A stretch of 64,000 bases of DNA from positions 1 through 64,000 of the forward strand of contig NZ_CCYH01000043.1 of the NCBI RefSeq assembly GCF_000820765.1. The letters are read 5' to 3'. This DNA comes from Candidatus Soleaferrea massiliensis AP7. Lineage in GTDB: Bacteria; Bacillota; Clostridia; Oscillospirales; Ruminococcaceae. The notes beneath the pieces were generated by a model that ran no database searches, was not told the origin of the DNA, and worked only from the letters and a program-made list of their open reading frames with translations. Each line of letters opens with the position of its first letter. The first letter of the stretch is position 1. The position numbers and the translations under genes were made by a program. Below, one piece after another: positions 1,916 to 64,000 of the stretch.

Positions 1916-4474
1916 TCAGGATGGGTTTTCCGGCTGCTGCGGCTTCTCGCGGTCCGGCCGCGGGATTTCAGGTTCCTGTTCAGCCGGAACCTCGTCTCCG
2001 CTTTCCGGCTCCGCTTTGTTTTCAAGCTCCGCCGGCTGCGGCAGGCCGAACTGGTCGTTCTGGACCCTCAGCACATCGGTGTCTTCCAGGATATCGTCAA
2101 ATTCCATCTGGCCGGACTGACCTGCACAGGCCGGTACAAGCTCCCGGTTCTTTTTGTTGATCCGGTGGAAAACGATCATGTATGCAAGCAGAATGACCAG
2201 CGACAGACCCGAAATGAGAAGTCCCGCGTCGAGGCCCGGCGTCTTGTAGTTGAACCGGATGGTGTTGTTCTCTCCGGCCGGAACCTTGACCGCCATGAAA
2301 CCGATGTTGACCTTCTCGATATCCACCGGCTCGCCGTTGACGGTAGCGCTCCAGCCCTCCTCGTAAGGGACGCTGAAGAAGACAAGGTTGTCCTTGTCAA
2401 GGTCGATGGCTGCGGTAAAGCCGTTGTTGTCTGTTTCAAAGCTTGAGCAGGTGTATTTCTGCCGGTCTTTGACATCTTCGTAATAGTTATCCTCACTTAA
2501 AATGGGGAATTGGGAGGACTGCAGCTGTTTGATGGTGCCGCGGTATTTCTCAATCTGGTCGTCGTCCAGCACCATCGCGTGCAGCAGCATCTTGTGACGG
2601 TCGATTTCATTGACGTTCTCATAGTCCTGCCGACTGATGCACGCATCGTAGGTGAAGCCCATCGGCAGGAAATACTCGTTCTTATAGACCGTAAAGGCGC
2701 CCTGCTCGTCGTAGTATTCGAAGCCGGTGATGGAAGTGCCGGCCGGTTTGCTGTCCGGTACAAACAGGTATTTGACCGACAGGAGGGAACGGAGCCCGTA
2801 AAGCGACGGGCTAGGCTTTGAAGAAACGTCGCGGTCCACGCCGACTGTCGGGTAGAATTCCATGATGGACGCGGGAACCACGCTGTGGAAGGTCTGGATG
2901 GTCGGCATTCCCCAGAACATCGCCTGGTTCTCAATGCCGTCGTAGACATCGACGCGGTAGAACCCTTCATCCTGCGGCAGGCTGATCTTGTCCGCCCCTT
3001 CAATGCAGTTCTCAATAAACCACTGGTTGTCGTTGGAATGCTGTTTTCCGGTGCCGATATATACCCAGGAATAGATGATGCTGATGACGCATATCAGGAT
3101 GATCGAACGCTGGATCAGCTTTGCGCGGTCCTGCCGGTATTTTTTGATCAGCAGGTACACAAGCGCCAGCGAAAGCACGACAATCGCCGCATAAATCCAG
3201 AAGCGCAGCGGATACTTTTCCAGGCCGATGCCGCTGCCGTCATCATTGCTGTATGGCATAAAGCCGATGACCAGGATGAAGATCGCCGAGATAATCGCGG
3301 TGATCTTGAACCCGGCCTTCAAATCCACGGTATGGTCTTCCAGGCTCTTGACGGTTGCCAGCGCCATGATCAGCACCGGCATATAGAACCAGCGCGCATA
3401 GTAACTGCCGTTCATCGCGATAAAGATGCTGTTGAGACCCGGGATCAACGCCATCACGAAACAGACGATCAGGATGCGCTTAATCCAGTGCCCCTTCTTC
3501 TGTTTGATAAAGGACAGCACGCCGACCATGCCGAACATCGGGAGCCAGGCGGCCATCGAGGACCACTTCGCGCCCATGTCCGGGAAGAAATTCGGTCTGG
3601 ACGGCAGATCCGGCGGGAAGAACATGCTTTCCAAAATGGCCGGAATCCGCTGGTTGTTGTTGTAGAGCAGGAAATCCCAGCCGAGCAGCGAGCTGTCCAG
3701 CCTTGGATTCCCCAGCACCGTCAAGGCTGACGGTATCAGGACAAAGGCCGCCAGCGCGACGCCGATGACCGCCTCAAACACCAGCCAAAGGAATTTTTTG
3801 ATGGTGATGACCCAATCATCCGACAGCAGCCGGATGAAATAGTAGATGACCAGGAACACACATTCCCCAACAAAGAAGAAGTAGTTGATCATGGCCGAAA
3901 GGCAGATCATCAGCGCGAACAGGCCGCGCCGGTTGTACTGGATGAACTCCTCCAGCGCCAGCAGCACCAGCGGGAAGAAGGCCAGCACATCGAGGAAATG
4001 GTTGAAGAAGACGTTGTAGACCGTATAGCTGGAGAAGGCATACAGCAGTCCGCCGATGACCGCATAGCCGGGATTTTTGACAAAGCGGCGTATGTAGGCG
4101 TAAGCGGTCAGCGATGCCGTCGCGAACTTCAGCATCAGCAGCGGCGCCATCAAAAACGGCACAATATCGCTGGGGAACGGCAGCGTCAGCCAGAAAAACG
4201 GGCTGAACAGCAGATAGAAGCTGTAGGAGCCGATGAAATTGGCGCCCAAATCGGTGTTCCAGCTCCAGAATACATTGCCGGAATGCACCGCTTCATTGGC
4301 CAGCTTGTTAAATGGGATCTGCTGGACATTGAAATCTCCAAAGAACATAAAATAGCCATGATCATAAATGATAAACGGCAGGAAGATGATAAATGCCACA
4401 GCCAGCGCCACAAAAAACGCGAACTTATAGCTGTAGAGCTTCTTGTCGTGGGGGAGAGATATTTTGTTCAACAT
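1916..4474 (-). CDS. YfhO family multi-pass membrane protein
   Basis: An 852-residue protein with about a dozen predicted membrane helices in the first 460 residues, a long mostly soluble extracytoplasmic region (about 470-740), a last helix near 745-765, and an acidic Pro/Glu-rich tail. This is the architecture of the YfhO family, GT-C-like proteins linked in Bacillus and Listeria to adding sugars to lipoteichoic or wall polymers with undecaprenyl-phosphate sugar donors. The start at 4474 is preferred over an upstream in-frame ATG at 4486 because GAGGTGG lies just before it. The downstream GT2 enzyme is the usual partner that would make the lipid-linked sugar. The family call is firm; the substrate is unknown. 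Confidence 0.85.
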   Translation of the reverse strand: MLNKISLPHDKKLYSYKFAFFVALAVAFIIFLPFIIYDHGYFMFFGDFNVQQIPFNKLANEAVHSGNVFWSWNTDLGANFIGSYSFYLLFSPFFWLTLPFPSDIVPFLMAPLLMLKFATASLTAYAYIRRFVKNPGYAVIGGLLYAFSSYTVYNVFFNHFLDVLAFFPLVLLALEEFIQYNRRGLFALMICLSAMINYFFFVGECVFLVIYYFIRLLSDDWVITIKKFLWLVFEAVIGVALAAFVLIPSALTVLGNPRLDSSLLGWDFLLYNNNQRIPAILESMFFPPDLPSRPNFFPDMGAKWSSMAAWLPMFGMVGVLSFIKQKKGHWIKRILIVCFVMALIPGLNSIFIAMNGSYYARWFYMPVLIMALATVKSLEDHTVDLKAGFKITAIISAIFILVIGFMPYSNDDGSGIGLEKYPLRFWIYAAIVVLSLALVYLLIKKYRQDRAKLIQRSIILICVISIIYSWVYIGTGKQHSNDNQWFIENCIEGADKISLPQDEGFYRVDVYDGIENQAMFWGMPTIQTFHSVVPASIMEFYPTVGVDRDVSSKPSPSLYGLRSLLSVKYLFVPDSKPAGTSITGFEYYDEQGAFTVYKNEYFLPMGFTYDACISRQDYENVNEIDRHKMLLHAMVLDDDQIEKYRGTIKQLQSSQFPILSEDNYYEDVKDRQKYTCSSFETDNNGFTAAIDLDKDNLVFFSVPYEEGWSATVNGEPVDIEKVNIGFMAVKVPAGENNTIRFNYKTPGLDAGLLISGLSLVILLAYMIVFHRINKKNRELVPACAGQSGQMEFDDILEDTDVLRVQNDQFGLPQPAELENKAEPESGDEVPAEQEPEIPRPDREKPQQPENPS

Positions 4475-5425: not shown

Positions 5426-8400
5426 TTACATAAACCAATACCGCATACCGACTGCCGGCAGGCCGTTTGGCTGCTTCGGCTGTCCAAGAAGATCGACATC
5501 CTTCGAGAGGAGGTCGCGTTTTCTCGAGTAAGCGATCACGATGCCGTTCGTCAGGTTGTTCGGGGCCGAAGCTCCGGCGTTTGCACCGGTCTGCGGGTTG
5601 CCCTTCGAGGTGACGGTGACAACGCATTTGGCGGTGAAGTTTCCATCCGCGGTCTTGACTGTGATGGTCGCTGTACCCTTCGCAATACCGGTTACCTTTC
5701 CGTCCTTCGAGACGGTGGCAACCTTCGGATTGCTGCTGGTCCAGCTGACATTCTTGTTGCTCGCGTTTTCAGGCAGGATGGAAGCGCTCAGCTGCAGGGT
5801 TTCCTTGACGCCGATGGTTGCTCTCTCTTTGTTGAGCTTGACGCCGGTTACAGAAACGGTCTGCGGGGATTTCTTCTCAATATGGATGGTGCATTCCGCT
5901 GTGAAGCCGCCGTCCACGGTGGTTGCGGTGACAACGACATCGCCGGCTACCTTTGCGGTTACCATACCGTCTTCCGAAACCTCTGCCTTTTCCTCATCGT
6001 CGACAGACCAGGTGACCTTCTTCTCGGTTGCGTCCGCCGGCAGAACGCTTGCGTTCAGCTGCAGGGTATCGCCAATCTGGATGGTTTCCTCGGTCTTGTC
6101 CAGCTCAACGCCGGTCGCATCGACAATGACGGCGACCTTGCATCTTGCCTGGAAGTTTCCGTCCACGGTTGCGACGTTGACATAGGCTTCGCCGCCCTTG
6201 AGCGCGGTGACCAGTCCATCTTCAACCGACAGGATAGAGGAGTCGCTGACCGACCATCTGATTTCCTTATTGTCGGCGTCTGCTGGCAGGACATTGGCTG
6301 TCAGCTGTACGGTTTCACCGACACGCAGCTCCTCTTCGCTCTTATCCAGCTCCACACCGGAAACCGGAGTCGTCACGGTGACATTGCAGGTTGCGGTGAG
6401 CGCGCCTTCGCTGTCCTCAGCGGTTGCGGTGATGACCGCATTGCCCGCTTTGAGCGCGGTGATGGTGCCGTCCGCAGCCACAGATGCGACGGTGTCGTCG
6501 CTGCTGCTCCAGAGGACATTCTTGTTGGTGGTATTGTTCGGCAAGATGGTTGCATTCAGCTTGGCACTCTGGCCGATCGGGAGAGAAAGCTCTGCCTGAT
6601 CAAGCGCAATGCTCTCTGCGCGGACATTTTCAATGGTAAGCGTACAGGAAGCTTCGAAGTTTCCGTCTTCGCTCTTCACGGTGACGATGACTTCGCCGGC
6701 TGCGAGCGCTTTGACAAGGCCGTTTTCCACAGTCGCCTTGCCCGGCTCATTGACCGACCAGGACACGTTCTGGTTGGTGGCGTCTTCCGGGATGACGCTG
6801 GCATTCAGCTGCAGGGAATCGCCGACATAGATGGTGACATCTGTGATATCCAATTCAATTCCGGTGACCGGAACGATGACGGTTACGGTGCAGGAGGCTT
6901 CAAAGTCTCCGTCGACGGTCGTCGCGGTGACAACGACTTCGCCGCCGCCGATCGCGGTGACAAGTCCGTTTTCCACAGTCGCCTTGCTGTCGTCGCTGAC
7001 CGACCAGATAACTTCTTGATTATCAGCGTCCGCCGGCTGGACCTTTGCATTCAGCTTCAGGGTTTCGCCCAGATTGATGCTTGCGCTGGTCTTATCCAAC
7101 TCCACGCCGGTGACCGGCACGGTGATGTTGATGACGCATTCCGCTTCAAACGAGCCGTCGGCAGTCGTCGCCGTGACGGTGACTTCGCCGCCGCCGATCG
7201 CGGTGACAAGTCCGTTTTCCACAGTCGCCTTGCTGTCGTCGCTGACCGACCATATAACTTCCTGGTTGGTCGCATCCGCCGGCAGGACGCTTGCGTTCAG
7301 CTGCAACTTTTCGCCGCGCTTCATGTCGGCGGTCGTTTTATCCAGCTCAACGCCGGTTACCGGAACCACAACAACAATTTTGCACTGCGCGGTGATGTTG
7401 CCGTCCACAGAGGTGGCGCTTATCGTGACCTCGCCGCCCTTCAGCGCGGTGACCAGTCCGTTCTCGACCGTCGCGACTGCGGAGTTGCTGGTGTTCCATC
7501 TGATTTCTTTGTTTGTCGCATCTTCCGGCAGAACCGTTGCAAGAAGCTGCAGGGTTTCGCCGACCTTCAGTTCGCCGCTCGTATGATCAAGTGTGACCTC
7601 GGTGACCGGAACCACGATGGTCAGCGTACAGGTATCCTCAAAGGATCCGTCGACCGTCCTGACGGTGACGACAACCTCGCCGCCCTTCAGCGCGGTGACC
7701 AGTCCGTTCTCAACCGTCGCCTTGCTCTCGTCGTTAACCGACCAGATCACTTCTTTGTTGCTGGCGTTGCTCGGGAGCACCGATGCATTCAGCTGCAGGG
7801 TTCCGCCAACCTTGACTTCCCCTGTCTGCTTGTCCAGCTCCACGCCGGTGACGGCAACAGGATCAATCTGGATGGTGCAGGTCTCTGTAAAGCCGCCCTC
7901 TTCGGTCGTTACGGTGACAACCACCTGTCCCGGCGCCTTCGCGGTGACAAGGCCGTTCTCCACGCTTGCCTTGGACTCATCATCGACCGACCAGGTGACA
8001 TTCTGGTTATTTGCGTCTTCCGGCAGGACAGTCGCATTCAGCTTCAGAGTCTTGCCGTCCTCGATGGTCGCGGTATTTTTGTCCAGCCTGACGCCGGTGA
8101 CCGGGACAGGCGCTTTTTCAATATTGACGGTACAGGTAGCCTTAAAGCCGCCCTCTTCGGTGGTCACGGTGACAACCACCTGTCCGACCGCCTTTGCGGT
8201 GACCAGTCCGTTTTCCACACTCGCCTTGGAAGGATCATCAACCGACCAGGTGACGTTTTTATTCGCGGCATCCTCCGGAAGAACCGTTGCGGTCAGCTGC
8301 AGGGTAGCGCCTGTATAGATCGTCTCTTCAGTCTTATCCAGTCTGACGCCGGAAACCGGCACATCGATATGAATGCTGCACTGCGCCTGGATGTTGCCGT

Positions 8401-9937
8401 CCACAGAGGTTGCGTTGATGGTGACGTCGCCGGCCTTCAGCGCGGTGACGCGTCCATTCTCAACCGACGCAATTTCAGAATTGCTGCTGGTCCAGCGGAT
8501 CTCCTTGTTGGTCGCATCAGCCGGCAGAATCGTTGCTTCCAGCTCAAGCGAATCGCCCACAAACATGTCTGCCGTTTCCTTATTTAAGGTGACATCGGTA
8601 ACCGGCACAACCACAGTGACCGCACAGGTCTTCTCAAAACTGCCGTCCTCGGAGGTGACGGTGATGTCCGCGGAACCGGCCACGACAGCCGTGATATTGC
8701 CCTGCTGGTCGACGGTGACCTTGCTGTCATCGCTCGATTTCCAGCTGATGTTCTGATTGTCCGCATCCGCCGGGATGACCGATGCGTTCAGCTTCATCGA
8801 ATCGCCGCGATTGAGCGTCGCCGCGGTCTTGTCCAGCTGGATGCCGGTAACCCTGACAGGCGCTTTTTCAATCGTCAGCTTACAGGTATCGGTAAACGAG
8901 CCGTCCAGCGTGGTGACCGTGATGTCAACCTTGCCGGGAGCTACAGCCGTAACCAAGCCGTTTTTAACGGTTGCGATCGCGTTGTCGCTGGATTTCCAGC
9001 TGACGCCTTTGTTGGTCGCATCCGACGGAGAAACCGTCGCGGTCAGCTGCAGGGTCTCGCCTTCAGTCAGCGTGTCGCTGTTTTTGTTCAGCTTGACGCC
9101 GGTGACGTTGACCGGGGCCATCTCCAAATTGAAGATGGTGGTGGTTTGGTTGCCGGCCGCATCGGTCGCGACAACCGTATGTTTGCCGTCGGTGCCGATC
9201 GAGGTTCCGGAGGTGATGGTCTTGCCGTCCAGCGTGATGTTCCGGAGGTTCAGATCCTCCACATCGATCTTCACCGAACCGGTAAAGGCATTGGAAACCG
9301 TACCGGAATAGGATGTTCCGTTCAGCTTGACGGTCGGCGCCTTCTGGTCGACGCGGATGATGGTCTGATTCTCTTCTTTTGCGTTAAATGTGACATATTG
9401 TACTTCTGACGGATTTTTGTCATATATAAACGAACCGCTGTCCATGTTGATCGGAATGTTCGCTTCCTGGCCCGCCATGCTGTCCGCAATCTGGAATTTG
9501 ATCTTTAAGAAAGGATCTCCTTTCAGACTATTGGTGGCAATCAAGCTGTCAGCTATAAACATCAAATAAGAAATGCCCTTGTTGGGGTCATTTTTATCGA
9601 CCCTTGCTATCGTGGATAAATTATCTCTGCCGCTGCAGTTCAGCGATTCAGCTTCCTGTGTGCCGTTCAGCTTTGCAGGGATGATCTGATCCAGCTGATA
9701 TTTCAGGTACATTTCATAGGAATCCATACCTATTCCGTTTGTCTTTTCCTTGATGGGGGCGGAGTATGTCAGCTCCACCGTATCGCCGGGGTTGTAGAAC
9801 TTATCGTTGTAACTGCTTGAGATCATGAGATCCCCGCCCGACTCAAAATCCACTGCGGAAACAGTCGGTATCGTCAGGGAAGACAGCAGCACGCAGCCTG
9901 CCATGGTTGACGCCAGAATCTTTCTGGAATTCTTCAT
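5426..9937 (-). CDS. Giant secreted protein with cohesin-like and 14 BIg2 (Ig-like) repeats
   Basis: A 1503-residue exported protein, probably an adhesin or surface scaffold. Residues 1-28 are a signal peptide ending VSA. Residues about 29-195 resemble the cohesin fold, 196-275 an Ig-like linker, and about 277-1430 are 14 tandem BIg2 domains of about 82 residues (pattern VTGVxLDK, LPxDAxNK, VxWSSxD, VENGLVTA, DGxFxAxC). Each repeat carries one conserved Cys near its end. The C-terminus has NPQTGA and GIVIAYSRKR but no true membrane helix. I chose ATG 9937, not the frame extending to 10069, because AAGGAGG precedes it and the signal peptide begins there. Adjacent repeats 8 and 9 are nearly identical in DNA, a sign of recent duplication. 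Confidence 0.88.
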   Translation of the reverse strand: MKNSRKILASTMAGCVLLSSLTIPTVSAVDFESGGDLMISSSYNDKFYNPGDTVELTYSAPIKEKTNGIGMDSYEMYLKYQLDQIIPAKLNGTQEAESLNCSGRDNLSTIARVDKNDPNKGISYLMFIADSLIATNSLKGDPFLKIKFQIADSMAGQEANIPINMDSGSFIYDKNPSEVQYVTFNAKEENQTIIRVDQKAPTVKLNGTSYSGTVSNAFTGSVKIDVEDLNLRNITLDGKTITSGTSIGTDGKHTVVATDAAGNQTTTIFNLEMAPVNVTGVKLNKNSDTLTEGETLQLTATVSPSDATNKGVSWKSSDNAIATVKNGLVTAVAPGKVDITVTTLDGSFTDTCKLTIEKAPVRVTGIQLDKTAATLNRGDSMKLNASVIPADADNQNISWKSSDDSKVTVDQQGNITAVVAGSADITVTSEDGSFEKTCAVTVVVPVTDVTLNKETADMFVGDSLELEATILPADATNKEIRWTSSNSEIASVENGRVTALKAGDVTINATSVDGNIQAQCSIHIDVPVSGVRLDKTEETIYTGATLQLTATVLPEDAANKNVTWSVDDPSKASVENGLVTAKAVGQVVVTVTTEEGGFKATCTVNIEKAPVPVTGVRLDKNTATIEDGKTLKLNATVLPEDANNQNVTWSVDDESKASVENGLVTAKAPGQVVVTVTTEEGGFTETCTIQIDPVAVTGVELDKQTGEVKVGGTLQLNASVLPSNASNKEVIWSVNDESKATVENGLVTALKGGEVVVTVRTVDGSFEDTCTLTIVVPVTEVTLDHTSGELKVGETLQLLATVLPEDATNKEIRWNTSNSAVATVENGLVTALKGGEVTISATSVDGNITAQCKIVVVVPVTGVELDKTTADMKRGEKLQLNASVLPADATNQEVIWSVSDDSKATVENGLVTAIGGGEVTVTATTADGSFEAECVINITVPVTGVELDKTSASINLGETLKLNAKVQPADADNQEVIWSVSDDSKATVENGLVTAIGGGEVVVTATTVDGDFEASCTVTVIVPVTGIELDITDVTIYVGDSLQLNASVIPEDATNQNVSWSVNEPGKATVENGLVKALAAGEVIVTVKSEDGNFEASCTLTIENVRAESIALDQAELSLPIGQSAKLNATILPNNTTNKNVLWSSSDDTVASVAADGTITALKAGNAVITATAEDSEGALTATCNVTVTTPVSGVELDKSEEELRVGETVQLTANVLPADADNKEIRWSVSDSSILSVEDGLVTALKGGEAYVNVATVDGNFQARCKVAVIVDATGVELDKTEETIQIGDTLQLNASVLPADATEKKVTWSVDDEEKAEVSEDGMVTAKVAGDVVVTATTVDGGFTAECTIHIEKKSPQTVSVTGVKLNKERATIGVKETLQLSASILPENASNKNVSWTSSNPKVATVSKDGKVTGIAKGTATITVKTADGNFTAKCVVTVTSKGNPQTGANAGASAPNNLTNGIVIAYSRKRDLLSKDVDLLGQPKQPNGLPAVGMRYWFM

Positions 9938-10570
9938 TTTTTTAGCCTCCTTGAACTTATTGAATAGCATTTCACTATCAAACCTTGTGTAACAGGGTCC
10001 CTTTTCTCTGTCCAGCCCGCCGTTTTCCGGCAGACCGATTCGACGAAACCGGAATTCTGTTTGTTTCATTCCTTTTCCGCCGACAGGTTGTCCGTCTTAA
10101 TCGTCGCAAGCTAAAACGTCTATGGAGTCCTTTGCATGATTTTCTTGAGGGTGCCTTTCATTCCAAAAGTCTCCTGTTGAACTTCGATAAAAAGTCGTGC
10201 ACAACTCCTATCAATAATATAATATATTCCCAAGCGAATGTAAATAGGATTTCTGTTTCTTTACAAAATAACCGACACAATTCACAACTTCGTCTCAAAT
10301 GTTGGGATTTTACAGCTTCCCCTGGCGCTGTCATGGAAAAACGCGGCCTTCTTTGGACATAACTCATAAAAATATGAAGAATTCTGTCATTCAGAAGCCA
10401 AATATGCATAAAAACCGATGGAAATCAGCTCCAATTTATGTGGTTTCATCGAAGAATCCAGCATGTTGCATAAGATATCCATTTCTCCATTGATCAAACT
10501 GCCAGTGTCCCCATTTTTATCGTCATGAAATGGTTGTTTCCCGTTAAAGATTTTATAACCCGCTGTCCGA
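9938..10570. other. Long leader of the BIg2 gene and gap after the bPH2 gene
   Basis: From the promoter at 10216-10244 the transcript would run about 270 bases before the BIg2 start; I see no clear riboswitch in it. Between 10387 and 10578 an open frame on the minus strand starts with a GTG overlapping the stop of the bPH2 gene (63 residues, ending YAYLASE). It has no recognised homology and may be a remnant of a longer gene. Nothing else is evident. Confidence 0.4.
10216..10244 (-). promoter_or_regulatory. Sigma-A promoter for the BIg2 protein gene
   Basis: On the minus strand TTTACA and TATATT are separated by 17 bases, giving a predicted start near 10209 and a 5' leader of roughly 270 bases. 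Confidence 0.55.
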
Positions 10571-17790: not shown

Positions 17791-18058
17791 CCGGTTACAC
17801 CTCCTGTAAGATTCTTGTACAAGGATGGTTCCTTTATACAATCTGTAAACCAAGAAATGAAATATATGGTAAATTTCATCCCGGTATCGTATCAATATTG
17901 CGCGTACTGTTTCTTTGCAACCGTCTTTATCTGGGCAACAGAGCATGCGCCACATCTCTGTGTTCAGCATGCGGATGAATGGCACATCATCGCCATTCGC
18001 TTGTTTGCCGCAAATACCCTGCCAACCATAGTTTCATGTTTCGCCAATCGTAAGCACG

Positions 18059-18114
18059 CCGTAGGCGAATACTCCACCGTAGGTGGCCGTAGGCGATTGC
18101 CCCACCGCAGGTGG
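18059..18114 (+). repeat. Two tandem 28-bp palindromic units between rpsK and rpsD
   Basis: The units 18059-18086 and 18087-18114 both read CCGTAGGCGA, six or so variable bases, then CCACCGTAGGTGG or CCACCGCAGGTGG. Each contains two short hairpins (CGCC-GTA-GGCG and CCACC-GYA-GGTGG). They end exactly at the rpsK stop codon. Related units occur near 365-400, 38507-38530 and 57880-57918. The remaining gap (17791-18058) has no gene I can see; TTGATA with TACCAT 18 bases on is a weak promoter candidate for rpsD near 17870-17900 on the minus strand. Confidence 0.7.
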
Positions 18115-31817: not shown

Positions 31818-32146
31818 TTTCCATCGCCTCCTTAAGGTTTTGCATAAAATCTTTGGGGGCGCAGTAAAAACTGAACACTGTTCCGTGTGTTTGTAGTTTG
31901 AAGCTTAAAAAATCCGGATAAACTTTCGTTTTCAGACGCAAGTTCTCCGGAAGTCAAACATCCTTACAACAATTTGAATGGAATTTCTTTACAGAAAAAC
32001 ATCCATAAAGGGCATAGCATCCCCTTATGCTTCAAATTGTTCAGTATTTCTGTCGCCCGGTTTTAAATCGGACATACTCAGCGGAAATTACCTGCAAAGC
32101 AGCAACCTCCCGCGTCATCGCATATCTAGTGCAGTCTCACTCAGTA
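31818..32146 (-). other. About 320-base S10 operon leader
   Basis: The untranslated stretch between the predicted start near 32140 and rpsJ holds AGGAGGCG before the rpsJ ATG but no gene. I could not match it to a known ribosomal-protein-binding leader. Inverted pieces such as CAATTTGAATGG and CTTCAAATTGTT (about 31970-32040) could pair, so a folded leader is possible. Confidence 0.4.
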
Positions 32147-38375: not shown

Positions 38376-38506
38376 AGCCTATCATTTCTATCAGACATCC
38401 GTTTGTTCGCAGACACTCTGCTATCGATTTTTTCTGCAAACCTTTGCGATTATGCGGATCGAAAATCTCTCATCGATTCCACCCTGCTTCGTCAAAGAAC
38501 GGCGCA

Positions 38507-38530
38507 GCCGATTGCCCCACCGCAGGCGGG
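38507..38530 (+). repeat. Single copy of the CGATTG-CCACCG palindromic unit
   Basis: GCCGATTGCCCCACCGCAGG matches the units at 18059-18114 and the tail of copy B (57880-57918). With the following run of T it also forms a terminator-like hairpin for the plus direction. Confidence 0.5.
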
Positions 38531-57281: not shown

Positions 57282-57312
57282 GCAGGCACCTCCAGTTCTT
57301 TCGTTCGATTGT

Positions 57313-57361
57313 CCATCTATGGGAACTCCTAAAATGATTTCAGGAGTTCCCATAGATGGAC
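57313..57361. other. Perfect 19-bp inverted repeat in the argJ leader
   Basis: TCCATCTATGGGAACTCCT (57313-57331) and its exact complement (57343-57361) flank an 11-base loop, about 32 bases before the argJ start. A second small palindrome, ATGGATTCTAAATCCAT, follows at about 57369-57385. Without a T-run toward argJ it is not a typical terminator; it may be a repeat relic, a processing site or a regulatory hairpin. Confidence 0.75.
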
Positions 57362-57477
57362 TTTTGCATGGATTCTAAATCCATTAGATTTCTTGATTGG
57401 TTTGTAAGTTTTAACGCTTCGAGTCGTATAAGAAAGCAACCGCCGTGCAGCCGGATGCTGCTTGACAAACAAATATA

Positions 57478-57918
57478 CTGGACGCTGCGGCGCAGCGTTC
57501 TACATTTGTTTTCAAGCAAAACCTTGCTTGGTGGCAGTACCTCTTTTGCGTGGCCAAAAGAGGTACCAGAAAAGGCCATTTAAGGGGCCAGCTGCGCTGG
57601 TGCACGCGCTACGCGGCACTGAGATAAAAAAGAAGCCTATGACCAATTCACCGCAACAACGCAGCCCAAAAAGCGGCATAGCCGAGCGCCCCACCGCAGG
57701 TGGTGGCCCCCTTAAAAATCCCCTCAGATATCCCGCTTTCCGTTTCGGCCGCCTGCGGGCGGCGTTTGGTTTTGGTCAGGGCGGCTGAATGGCTAGTAGC
57801 GGATGCTTACGTTCCCTAATGCTATCTTAACTGGTACCCTGATTCCCGAAGCCGCTGTGTAAATGATTACTCAGACGGGGAACGCCGTAGGCGATTGCTC
57901 CACCGCGGTGGTGTGGGC
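57478..57918 (+). repeat. Copy B of the dispersed repeat, between argC and argJ
   Basis: On the plus strand this aligns with the minus strand of copy A block by block: the GCGCAGCG region, the hairpin at 57537-57566, AGAAAAGGCCATTTAAGGGG, the CCCCTTAAAAATCCCC segment, CGGCCGCCTGCGGGCGGCGT, GGCTGAATGGCTAGTAGC, and the tail with CGCCGTAGGCGATTG. Its hairpin stem differs from copies A and D but still pairs perfectly. A decayed tandem copy of the second half follows at 57931-58024. Confidence 0.7.
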
Positions 57919-57930
57919 GGCATTCTGTTT

Positions 57931-58024
57931 TGGGCTGAGTGGTTGGGCATAGCTAGCAGCGGACGCTTCTCCGGTTACAAGCCGCTTCTGTGGTATCCCA
58001 ATACTTAAGGCCGCTGCGTAAACC
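57931..58024 (+). repeat. Partial tandem duplicate of the second half of copy B
   Basis: GGGCTGAGTGGTTGGGCATA, CTAGCAGCGGACGCTT and GCCGCTGCGTAAACC parallel GGGCGGCTGAATGG, CTAGTAGCGGATGCTT and GCCGCTGTGTAAATG in copy B at 57774-57869. The remainder to the argC stop shows no gene. Confidence 0.55.
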
Positions 58025-58156
58025 AAGCTCCGGTCTCAATAAGCCGGAGATTTCTACAGGTGGAACATCATCAAACCTTCGCCAGCACGGGACGGCGGCA
58101 TACCGATAGGACAAACAGCGGCAAACCTACAAGATTGCCGGCATACGCCCCATCGC

Positions 58157-63797: not shown

Positions 63798-64000
63798 GGA
63801 CTGTTAAAAAACGGGGAATAGCTATAGCTGTTTTCCAGAACAGCCTGACAGGGTGTTTGTTGAAGCATAGTGTTGTACCGCTGTAGTACAGCGGCTTTCT
63901 TATGTTTACCAAGTGACACTTGGCTGTGTGGTCGTTACTTCTTTGCGCGGCCAAAGAAGTAACCAAGAAAGGCCGTTCAAGGGGGCCATGCACTGTGCCA
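63798..64000 (+). repeat. Copy D of the dispersed repeat, cut by the window edge
   Basis: It opens with GGACTGTTAAAAAACG, similar to the inner end of the copy A inverted repeat (GGCTGTCAAAAAACG). Then come CAGCGGCTT, ATGTTTACCAAGTGACACTT, the hairpin GTTACTTCTTTG/CAAAGAAGTAAC at 63934-63963, and CAAGAAAGGCCGTTCAAGGG followed by GGCCATGCACTGTGCCA. It follows the copy A order in the same sense as copy A's minus strand. Confidence 0.7.

Follow-up and report, generated by a model that had tools for sequence, protein, structure and literature searches.

Dispersed intergenic hairpins of Candidatus Soleaferrea massiliensis as putative triple-helix pseudoknots at the ends of MITE-like elements

The repeated hairpins of Candidatus Soleaferrea massiliensis AP7 are interpreted here as H-type triple-helix pseudoknots forming the shape-recognised ends of MITE-like elements, probably as RNA, a reading which the evidence favours by a modest margin and whose last steps are inferred. 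In the proposed fold, the parts would follow one another on the strand opposite to that showing a hairpin with an A-rich tail, in the order S1a (GGCC-like), L1 (pyrimidine), S2a, a loop containing S1b, S2b (purine) and, usually, an outer hairpin P1. In its register, L1 would face S2b in parallel and form T.A-T and C.G-C Hoogsteen triples, resulting in a major-groove triple-helix pseudoknot. The elements themselves would be mobile but non-autonomous (MITE-like), and an unidentified factor reading the folded end by its shape would spread them, with the folded form most likely being RNA read outwards from the element.

Hairpin copies within the window

The window analysed covers bases 1-64,000 of contig C43; the genome (G000) has 3,098,593 bases in 51 contigs. 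The parts of hairpin copies A to D and other features of the window are as follows.

620-631 (GTTACTTCTTTG) with 637-648 (CAAAGAAGTAAC), loop 632-636; predicted pseudoknot strand +; main stem S2 of copy A, from sequence
608-612; strand +; S1a of copy A, CGGCC, which can pair with loop S1b GGCCG at 631-635
613-619; strand +; L1 of copy A, TTTCTTG, parallel to AAAGAA at 638-643, proposed triple helix
658-673; strand +; outer hairpin P1 of copy A, GCCAAG-GCGT-CTTGGC
57537-57548 (GTACCTCTTTTG) with 57555-57566 (CAAAAGAGGTAC); predicted pseudoknot strand -; main stem S2 of copy B
57551-57555; strand -; S1b of copy B, reading TGGCC on the + strand
57567-57573; strand -; L1 of copy B, reading TTTTCTG on the - strand
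57574-57578; strand -; S1a of copy B, reading GGCCA on the + strand
57513-57530; strand -; outer hairpin of copy B, CAAGCAA-AACC-TTGCTTG, at the place of P1 but differing from it in sequence
1-8 (S2 remnant), 9-15 (L1) and 16-20 (S1a); strand -; copy C, starting at base 1 with AGAGTAACC
63934-63945 (GTTACTTCTTTG) with 63952-63963 (CAAAGAAGTAAC); strand -; S2 of copy D, from sequence
63948-63952 (S1b), 63964-63970 (L1) and 63971-63975 (S1a); strand -; other parts of copy D
63909-63923; strand -; core of outer hairpin P1 of copy D, CCAAG-TGACA-CTTGG
1-681; no strand; element containing the convergent pseudoknots of copies C and A, tails inward, inverted repeats I7 and I9
32050-32126; S10-Clostridia leader, from an Rfam scan of the window

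A preliminary description of the window had reported perfect 12-bp stems in copies A, B and D, with the arms of B differing from those shared by A and D, and its stems and coordinates were exact. Its claim that copy C is cut and carries a third variant, AGAGTAACC, also held; the cut is the start of contig C43 itself, window base 1 being base 1 of that contig, and the copy is thus truncated by the assembly. Copy A lies in the orientation opposite to that of B, C and D, and its G631 is usable by S1 or by the top S2 pair, never by both. The fifth S1 pair is T-A in copy B and C-G in copies A and D. The element at 1-681 is among the 27 convergent pairs of the genome, with its left outer end lying beyond the contig end.

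Copy B is found in the gap between argC and argJ, with the fold's strand (-) being the sense strand for both genes. Its element lies within this 800-bp gap (window 57354-58156), and a near-perfect 25-bp inverted repeat is present at 57311-57361 over the argJ start region. The closest named relative of ArgJ was that of Massiliimalia timonensis, with 67% identity, the Soleaferrea genome possibly having been excluded from that search. It should also be noted that a further short repeat module, GCCGATTGCCCCACCGCAGGTGG-like, occurs at 18050-18114, 38493-38529, 57667-57703 and 57876-57912, with and without the hairpin, and that a 1547-aa ORF at 5426-10069 (-) consists mostly of imperfect direct repeats of 246 nt (82 codons).

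Conservation of pairing in the main stem

One form of the 3' arm with its tail occurs 76 times in the genome compared to 0 occurrences of the reversed pattern, while the tail motif with <=3 mismatches occurs 112 times compared to 9 for the reversed control. A covariance model (R1) built from 32 copies gave 149 matches at E <= 1, of which 135, together with four contig-cut copies, form the set of 139 used for the pairing analysis; 12 weak matches and two partial or symmetric ones on C48 were left out. Within the fetched pieces of the genome 126 copies were parsed, 4 of them cut by contig ends and 122 complete; a symmetric hairpin on C48 enters this count twice, once per orientation. The best 10-13 bp stem of the complete copies has no mismatch in 110, one in five, two in three and three or more in four. 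In at least four of the 12 imperfect copies (on C25, C38, C39 and C40) the 5' and 3' arms come from different alleles, and copies on C5 and C35 have approximately 25 nt where the usual loop should be. The stems at C25:311 and C39:3318 of G000 (L064 and L071) are reciprocal chimeras, GTACC..GTAAC and GTTAC..GGTAC, with the same downstream sequence, and look as if their arms had been swapped.

In the 32-copy alignment, of which three GTTCTTC rows were misaligned by MAFFT, the covariation score was 0.220 compared to 0.119 after shuffling and 92.1% of cells were paired compared to 86.2%, with 0 of 500 shuffles reaching either value. Both-sided pair changes (6 against 4.1 shuffled, reached by 58 of 500) and further pair types (15 against 14.1, reached by 140 of 500) were not unusual in this alignment. 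A tree-aware null was then constructed with 116 copies of the genome (10 dropped), in which Fitch substitutions were re-dealt over a FastTree tree in 500 rounds. S2 pairs were 98.8% canonical against a maximum of 97.4% among the nulls, and 67 cells were changed on both sides against a maximum of 43. The two GTTAC/GTACC columns and their partners require 5 to 8 substitutions each on the tree, which points to several independent coupled changes, subject to recombination between copies.

The preliminary description had proposed that pairing rather than sequence is kept, to be refuted by a lack of covariation or by mostly broken stems. With re-dealt substitutions used in place of R-scape, S2 pairing lay above all 500 nulls and the claim was supported; neither refuting outcome arose, with 110 of 122 stems perfect and 0 of 500 nulls reaching the observed values. 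Sequence comparison shows that it is the pairing of the stem, and not its sequence, that is conserved.

A second helix between loop and tail

The hairpin picture of the preliminary description was incomplete: very probably the hairpin is just one of the helices in a pseudoknot that ends a larger element and probably includes a third strand. The loops of the genome finish with GGC ahead of the C of the arm, and GGCC comes after the purine tract in the tail. The fifth S1 pair could be read in 119 of 126 copies (7 unparsed), being C-G in 93, T-A in 15, G-G in six, C-A in two, T-G in two and A-G in one, with C-G and T-A both present within interior classes II, III and IV. S1 pairs of the 116 copies were 96.8% canonical compared to 96.3% in the best tree-aware null (0 of 500), and the columns of the fifth pair require 5-8 substitutions each on the tree. 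The number of S1 cells changed on both sides, 15, was reached by 21 of 500 nulls.

Loop and tail also match in other genomes with other sequences, examples being TGCC/GGCA, TGTA/TACA, TCGCC/GGCGA, CGACG/CGTCG, GGCG/CGCC, CACC/GGTG and GCTGC/GCAGC. Over 27 genomes or records, two of which are identical in sequence and two from one strain, the mean S1 run was 4.00 compared to 2.99 with swapped tails. The largest of 2000 swaps gave 3.59, below the smallest observed genome draw of 3.74, and runs of >=4 were found in about 70% of genome draws compared to 25% with swapped tails. Seven hairpin forms had been removed by eye before the cross-genome tests; with these kept, the values were 3.95 and 2.92 over 29 genomes or records. 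No S1 pairing was found in Burkholderia cepacia/arboris and G051 in this comparison. Sequence comparison shows two helices in pseudoknot order, each with covariation support, with S1 absent or short in a minority. That the fold is a pseudoknot is inferred with high confidence from these patterns, without structure probing.

A probable third strand in triple register

Viewed on the opposite strand, the copies of the genome have a pyrimidine loop, TTTCTT or TTTTCT, and a purine arm, AAAGAA or AAAAGA, with the Hoogsteen partners running parallel. Among 120 parsed copies, the tail exactly mirrors the 3' arm in 118 and has one additional A in the remaining two; six copies were unparsed (three cut, two with an altered 3' arm, CAAAAAAG, and the symmetric C48 hairpin). 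None of 500 tree-aware nulls of the 116 copies matched the mirror register of L1 and S2b, and the change of register within the genome represents only about one event on the tree.

Across genomes, 17 genome-by-register combinations were parallel, two opposite and 11 uninformative, both opposite cases being parsing errors (a G083 tail and C43:86653). The two ends of one Pasteurella element, TTTTCTTT//AAAAGAAA and TTTCTTTT//AAAGAAAA, have different stems, registers and loops, but each end is consistent within itself. Within Variovorax, L1 and arm read TTCTTTT//AAGAAAA and TTTCTTT//AAAGAAA, and within G054 TTTCTC//AAAGAG and TTTCTT//AAAGAA. Parallel runs averaged 6.37 compared to 5.47 with swapped tails, a value reached by 0 of 2000 swaps. 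A plain run-length test of the triples was near neutral (parallel 6.15, antiparallel 5.92; 21 better, 25 equal, 14 worse), largely owing to the many symmetric tracts. C.G triples were no commoner than with swapped tails (22.3 against 24.0).

Two other arrangements were rejected. Pairing of the 5' arm with the tail as a direct repeat is excluded in the Soleaferrea copies and in asymmetric relatives, where the tail G is mirrored and not repeated. The same mirror would be required of a purine-motif third strand on the + strand, whose linker, however, seemed too short; moreover, the mismatches on that strand are A.C and not G.U. It is shown, at the level of sequence register only, that L1 lies in triple register with the purine arm S2b; a triple helix inside the pseudoknot is a likely inference from sequence, for which there are no probing data.

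Occurrence of the fold in other genomes

A search of 197 other relatives with R1 at E <= 0.1 gave matches in 19. As E-values count per genome, approximately 19 single weak matches could arise by chance, and firm matches come from G121, G054 and G089, with 13 in each, from G139, with 4, and from a few others with E < 0.001. Among 343 Clostridia, just two others matched at E <= 0.01, suggesting a patchy distribution. Plasmid or chromid records from Ilyobacter, Pseudoalteromonas, Burkholderia, Caballeronia, Paraburkholderia, Variovorax, Chitinibacter and Pasteurella carried similar folds, one Caballeronia record having them at 39 places. These folds were listed with a descriptor requiring only a stem and an A-rich purine tail. 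The fold is present, with other sequences, in Clostridia, Pseudomonadota and Fusobacteriota.

Other searches yielded little. A phage search for the fold gave only two partial matches, a search of E. coli genomes with the Pasteurella fold gave none, the exact motif had 0 matches in the genome contig and viral contig sets, and the 581-bp island of copy B had no match among plasmids and phages. With <=1 mismatch, the motif matched once each in three others of 149 relatives, the same as the control. The poly-T version GTTACTTTTTTG gave one hairpin, without a tail, in viral contigs.

An independent set was drawn from viral contigs with four stems, leaving loop and flanks free, which returned 8, 4, 24 and 14 stretches, some of them nearly identical. 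An A-rich purine tail was present in 18 of 100 orientations. The register could be read in 16 tailed hairpins, 13 of which equalled the prediction exactly; the misses were two with (4,4) instead of (3,4) and one, chance-like, with (3,1) instead of (3,2). All five exact asymmetric cases were parallel. The loop-tail run averaged 3.63 in 16 distinct cases compared to 2.90 when swapped, the largest of 1000 swaps giving 3.69, and runs of >=4 occurred in 7 of 16 distinct cases, up to CTTGAA/TTCAAG.

The element and its genomic setting

Within the Soleaferrea genome, 29 neighbouring pairs of copies lie within 1500 nt of each other, 27 of them convergent and two tandem, with convergent gaps of 479-669 bp in 26 of the 27 and 1265 in the other. 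Convergent pairs account for 54 of the 139 copies and 85 are unpaired; for 24 of these 85 a contig end lies within 700 nt on the tail side, which, together with C43 starting inside a copy, indicates that the repeats break the assembly. Convergent pairs were also seen in Pasteurella, Variovorax, Paraburkholderia, Caballeronia, G121 and G139. Elements with convergent ends are ORF-less, intergenic and roughly 0.4-0.8 kb in length. By rough ORF calls, 123 of 126 copies lie outside long ORFs and three within one; the outer gene shares the strand of the fold in 29 copies, is opposite (convergent) in 57 and has no call in 40. A small ORF in interiors of the GCTGCGC class was rejected, as its frame breaks in at least one copy (C18:63401).

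The outer hairpin P1 beside the fold had a mean stem of 4.6 compared to 1.7 when shuffled, being higher in 22 of 26 genomes; it is missing in, for example, G051, G095 and G191. Outside the pseudoknot, islands of the Soleaferrea genome (e.g., G000:C12:42430-42680) contain the tandem palindromes CCGCTGTGGCACAGCGG and GCCAAG..CTTGGC, which vary between copies.

A paired Caballeronia element of approximately 0.6 kb between a permease gene and dhaK is present in zhejiangensis and NK8 and absent from insecticola and M1242; no target duplication could be defined at this locus. The element meets the MITE criteria of being short and ORF-less with inverted ends, 85 of 139 Soleaferrea copies being unpaired, and insertion polymorphism of the MITE type is shown for Caballeronia only, at one locus. 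It is likely that the fold represents the end of a mobile element, the mobilising enzyme of which remains unidentified.

RNA or DNA as the acting form

The preliminary description had the hairpin working as folded RNA or DNA, a choice which remains unsettled, the evidence only leaning to RNA. Among 15 distinct stems with a single mismatch, read on the predicted strand, ten had G.U, two A.C and three another mismatch (two-sided P 0.039). This excess is small, and several cases share one Burkholderiales position. S1 showed no G.U bias, with two G.U and two A.C on the predicted strand. The Rfam matches next to the fold (Bp1_684 and TwoAYGGAY) are on the predicted strand. Bp1_Cand684 was detected by RT-PCR (PMC3521395), with oligo(dT)-primed cDNA that was not strand-specific and a locus between co-directional genes; for both reasons this provides only weak support for an RNA. 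The fold runs antisense to aceF-lpdA on a Burkholderia cepacia plasmid record.

No match to Y1_Tnp (RAYT) was detected in the Soleaferrea genome with its 139 copies, while 3 of 11 searched genomes have one, nor was any found there to RVT_1, the IS110 DEDD domain or a TnpB-like domain. In copies A, B and D the stem lacks a following U-run on either strand; what comes next is CAAGAAAGG or CAGAAAAGG on the + strand and GTGG/CACC-type sequence on the other side. The reading as an intrinsic terminator was rejected for the lack of a U-run directly after these stems. It is suspected, by a narrow margin and without transcript or probing data, that RNA is the acting form.

Alternative explanations

The alternative that survives best, and remains possible, is that the ends are recognised as folded single-stranded DNA by an HUH-type transposase, in the style of REP/RAYT or IS200/IS605, with no role for RNA. 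The convergent pairs, presence/absence variation and intergenic placement are in agreement with it, and a C+.G-C / T.A-T triplex is also possible in DNA. Against it stand the lack of any Y1_Tnp, RVT_1, IS110 or TnpB-like match in the Soleaferrea genome despite its 139 copies, and the G.U excess on one strand.

It is unlikely that the covariation merely reflects block inheritance, with few alleles shuffled among copies by recombination and no selection on pairing. Chimeric stems do exist (C25, C38, C39 and C40), and the register change within the genome is about one event. However, on the tree each column of the GTTAC/GTACC change and of the fifth S1 pair takes 5-8 substitutions, and the rules hold between genera with other sequences and in the viral-contig set.

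A cis-acting mRNA element of neighbouring genes, such as a leader, terminator or stability element, is likewise unlikely. It would suit copy B, placed between argC and argJ with its fold sense to both genes, but the outer gene is opposite to the fold's strand in 57 copies against 29 on the same strand, so that most copies do not lead a gene. The missing U-run after the stems of A, B and D and the antisense position relative to aceF-lpdA in the Burkholderia cepacia plasmid record also argue against it.

Mutational palindrome repair, in which template switching or gene conversion copies arm onto arm without any function being needed, is very unlikely: the stems do form a small number of discrete alleles, whose arms differ by several coupled changes with intermediates being scarce, but such repair cannot match a loop to a non-adjacent tail or give a mirror rather than inverted arm-tail relation, and it is opposed by G.U wobbles being the commonest single mismatch on one strand and by C-G and T-A S1 pairs occurring with the same stem alleles, which suggests loop-tail covariation while the stem is unchanged.

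Relation to known systems and significance

Dispersed folded repeats, MITEs and triple-helix pseudoknots are already known as kinds. The pseudoknot of telomerase RNA has an H-type topology like that of the proposed fold, in which the purine arm of the second helix has a loop strand running parallel to it. The repeat fold differs from known triple-helix pseudoknots in being present as many dispersed copies per genome, in inverted pairs and without a steady gene partner, and in having an S2 of approximately 9-14 bp with no known ligand or protein. REP, REPIN and BIME sequences are abundant folded intergenic repeats, often in inverted pairs (PMC2817692; PMC3116915; PMC3733652), and the repeat fold resembles them in all these respects; unlike REP/REPIN, it is a pseudoknot and not a simple hairpin, its pairs are approximately 0.5 kb apart and the Soleaferrea genome lacks a RAYT. 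The word "pseudoknot" is absent from PMC3733652 and PMC2267715. Like MITEs, the elements lack ORFs, measure a few hundred bp, have inverted ends and vary in presence or absence, but the ends of the Pasteurella and Variovorax elements share fold more than sequence, and no parent transposon was found. The STAXI motif (PMC2864571) likewise consists of repeated pseudoknots, located near DNA-handling genes, although its copies are tandem; it had no Rfam match in the stretches scanned. The ENE triple helices of plant transposable elements (PMC12501189) place a triple helix in the RNA of a mobile element, but the ENE clamps a poly(A) tail, whereas the third strand here would be the element's own loop.

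Two Rfam families touch the fold on the predicted strand, neither of which spans the pseudoknot as a unit. Bp1_684 (RF02421) starts in the last S2b bases and continues through P1 in Burkholderia-group copies; TwoAYGGAY (RF01731) touches L1/S1a in one Pseudoalteromonas copy. Bp1_684 exceeded the gathering threshold only in L301, L306 and L307, and TwoAYGGAY twice in L258, one of the two being a partial match at threshold; the Soleaferrea genome had 0 of either. At L258:2535-2698 (-) and 2961-3027 (+), the latter partial and at threshold, TwoAYGGAY matches adjoin two Pseudoalteromonas pseudoknots. Searches for TwoAYGGAY in 198 and Bp1_684 in 291 genomes of Clostridia gave none, with the positive control also silent. 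Matches to miRNA families in L260 and L300 were judged to be chance. The combination of repeat, MITE and pseudoknot traits was not found in the Rfam matches or the open-access literature searched, which is far from everything.

A bolder reading, for which the present evidence falls slightly short, would jointly hold that these are noncoding mobile elements of at least Clostridia, Pseudomonadota and Fusobacteriota with telomerase-like triple-helix pseudoknot ends, that the ends are recognised by shape, those of one element sharing a fold and not necessarily a sequence, and that the end RNA is the recognition or guide part of an unidentified mobilisation system.

The elements also serve as a warning, as they break assemblies. 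Covariation of three strands, two of the stem and a third, would be an unusual case of sequence by itself pointing to a triple helix, if the fold is right. If the preferred reading of shape-recognised pseudoknot ends is true, it would explain fragments filed apart in Rfam (part of Bp1_684 and possibly TwoAYGGAY), would turn a very common unnamed bacterial repeat hairpin into a defined fold with testable rules, and would provide a first handle on the recognition and spread of these elements.
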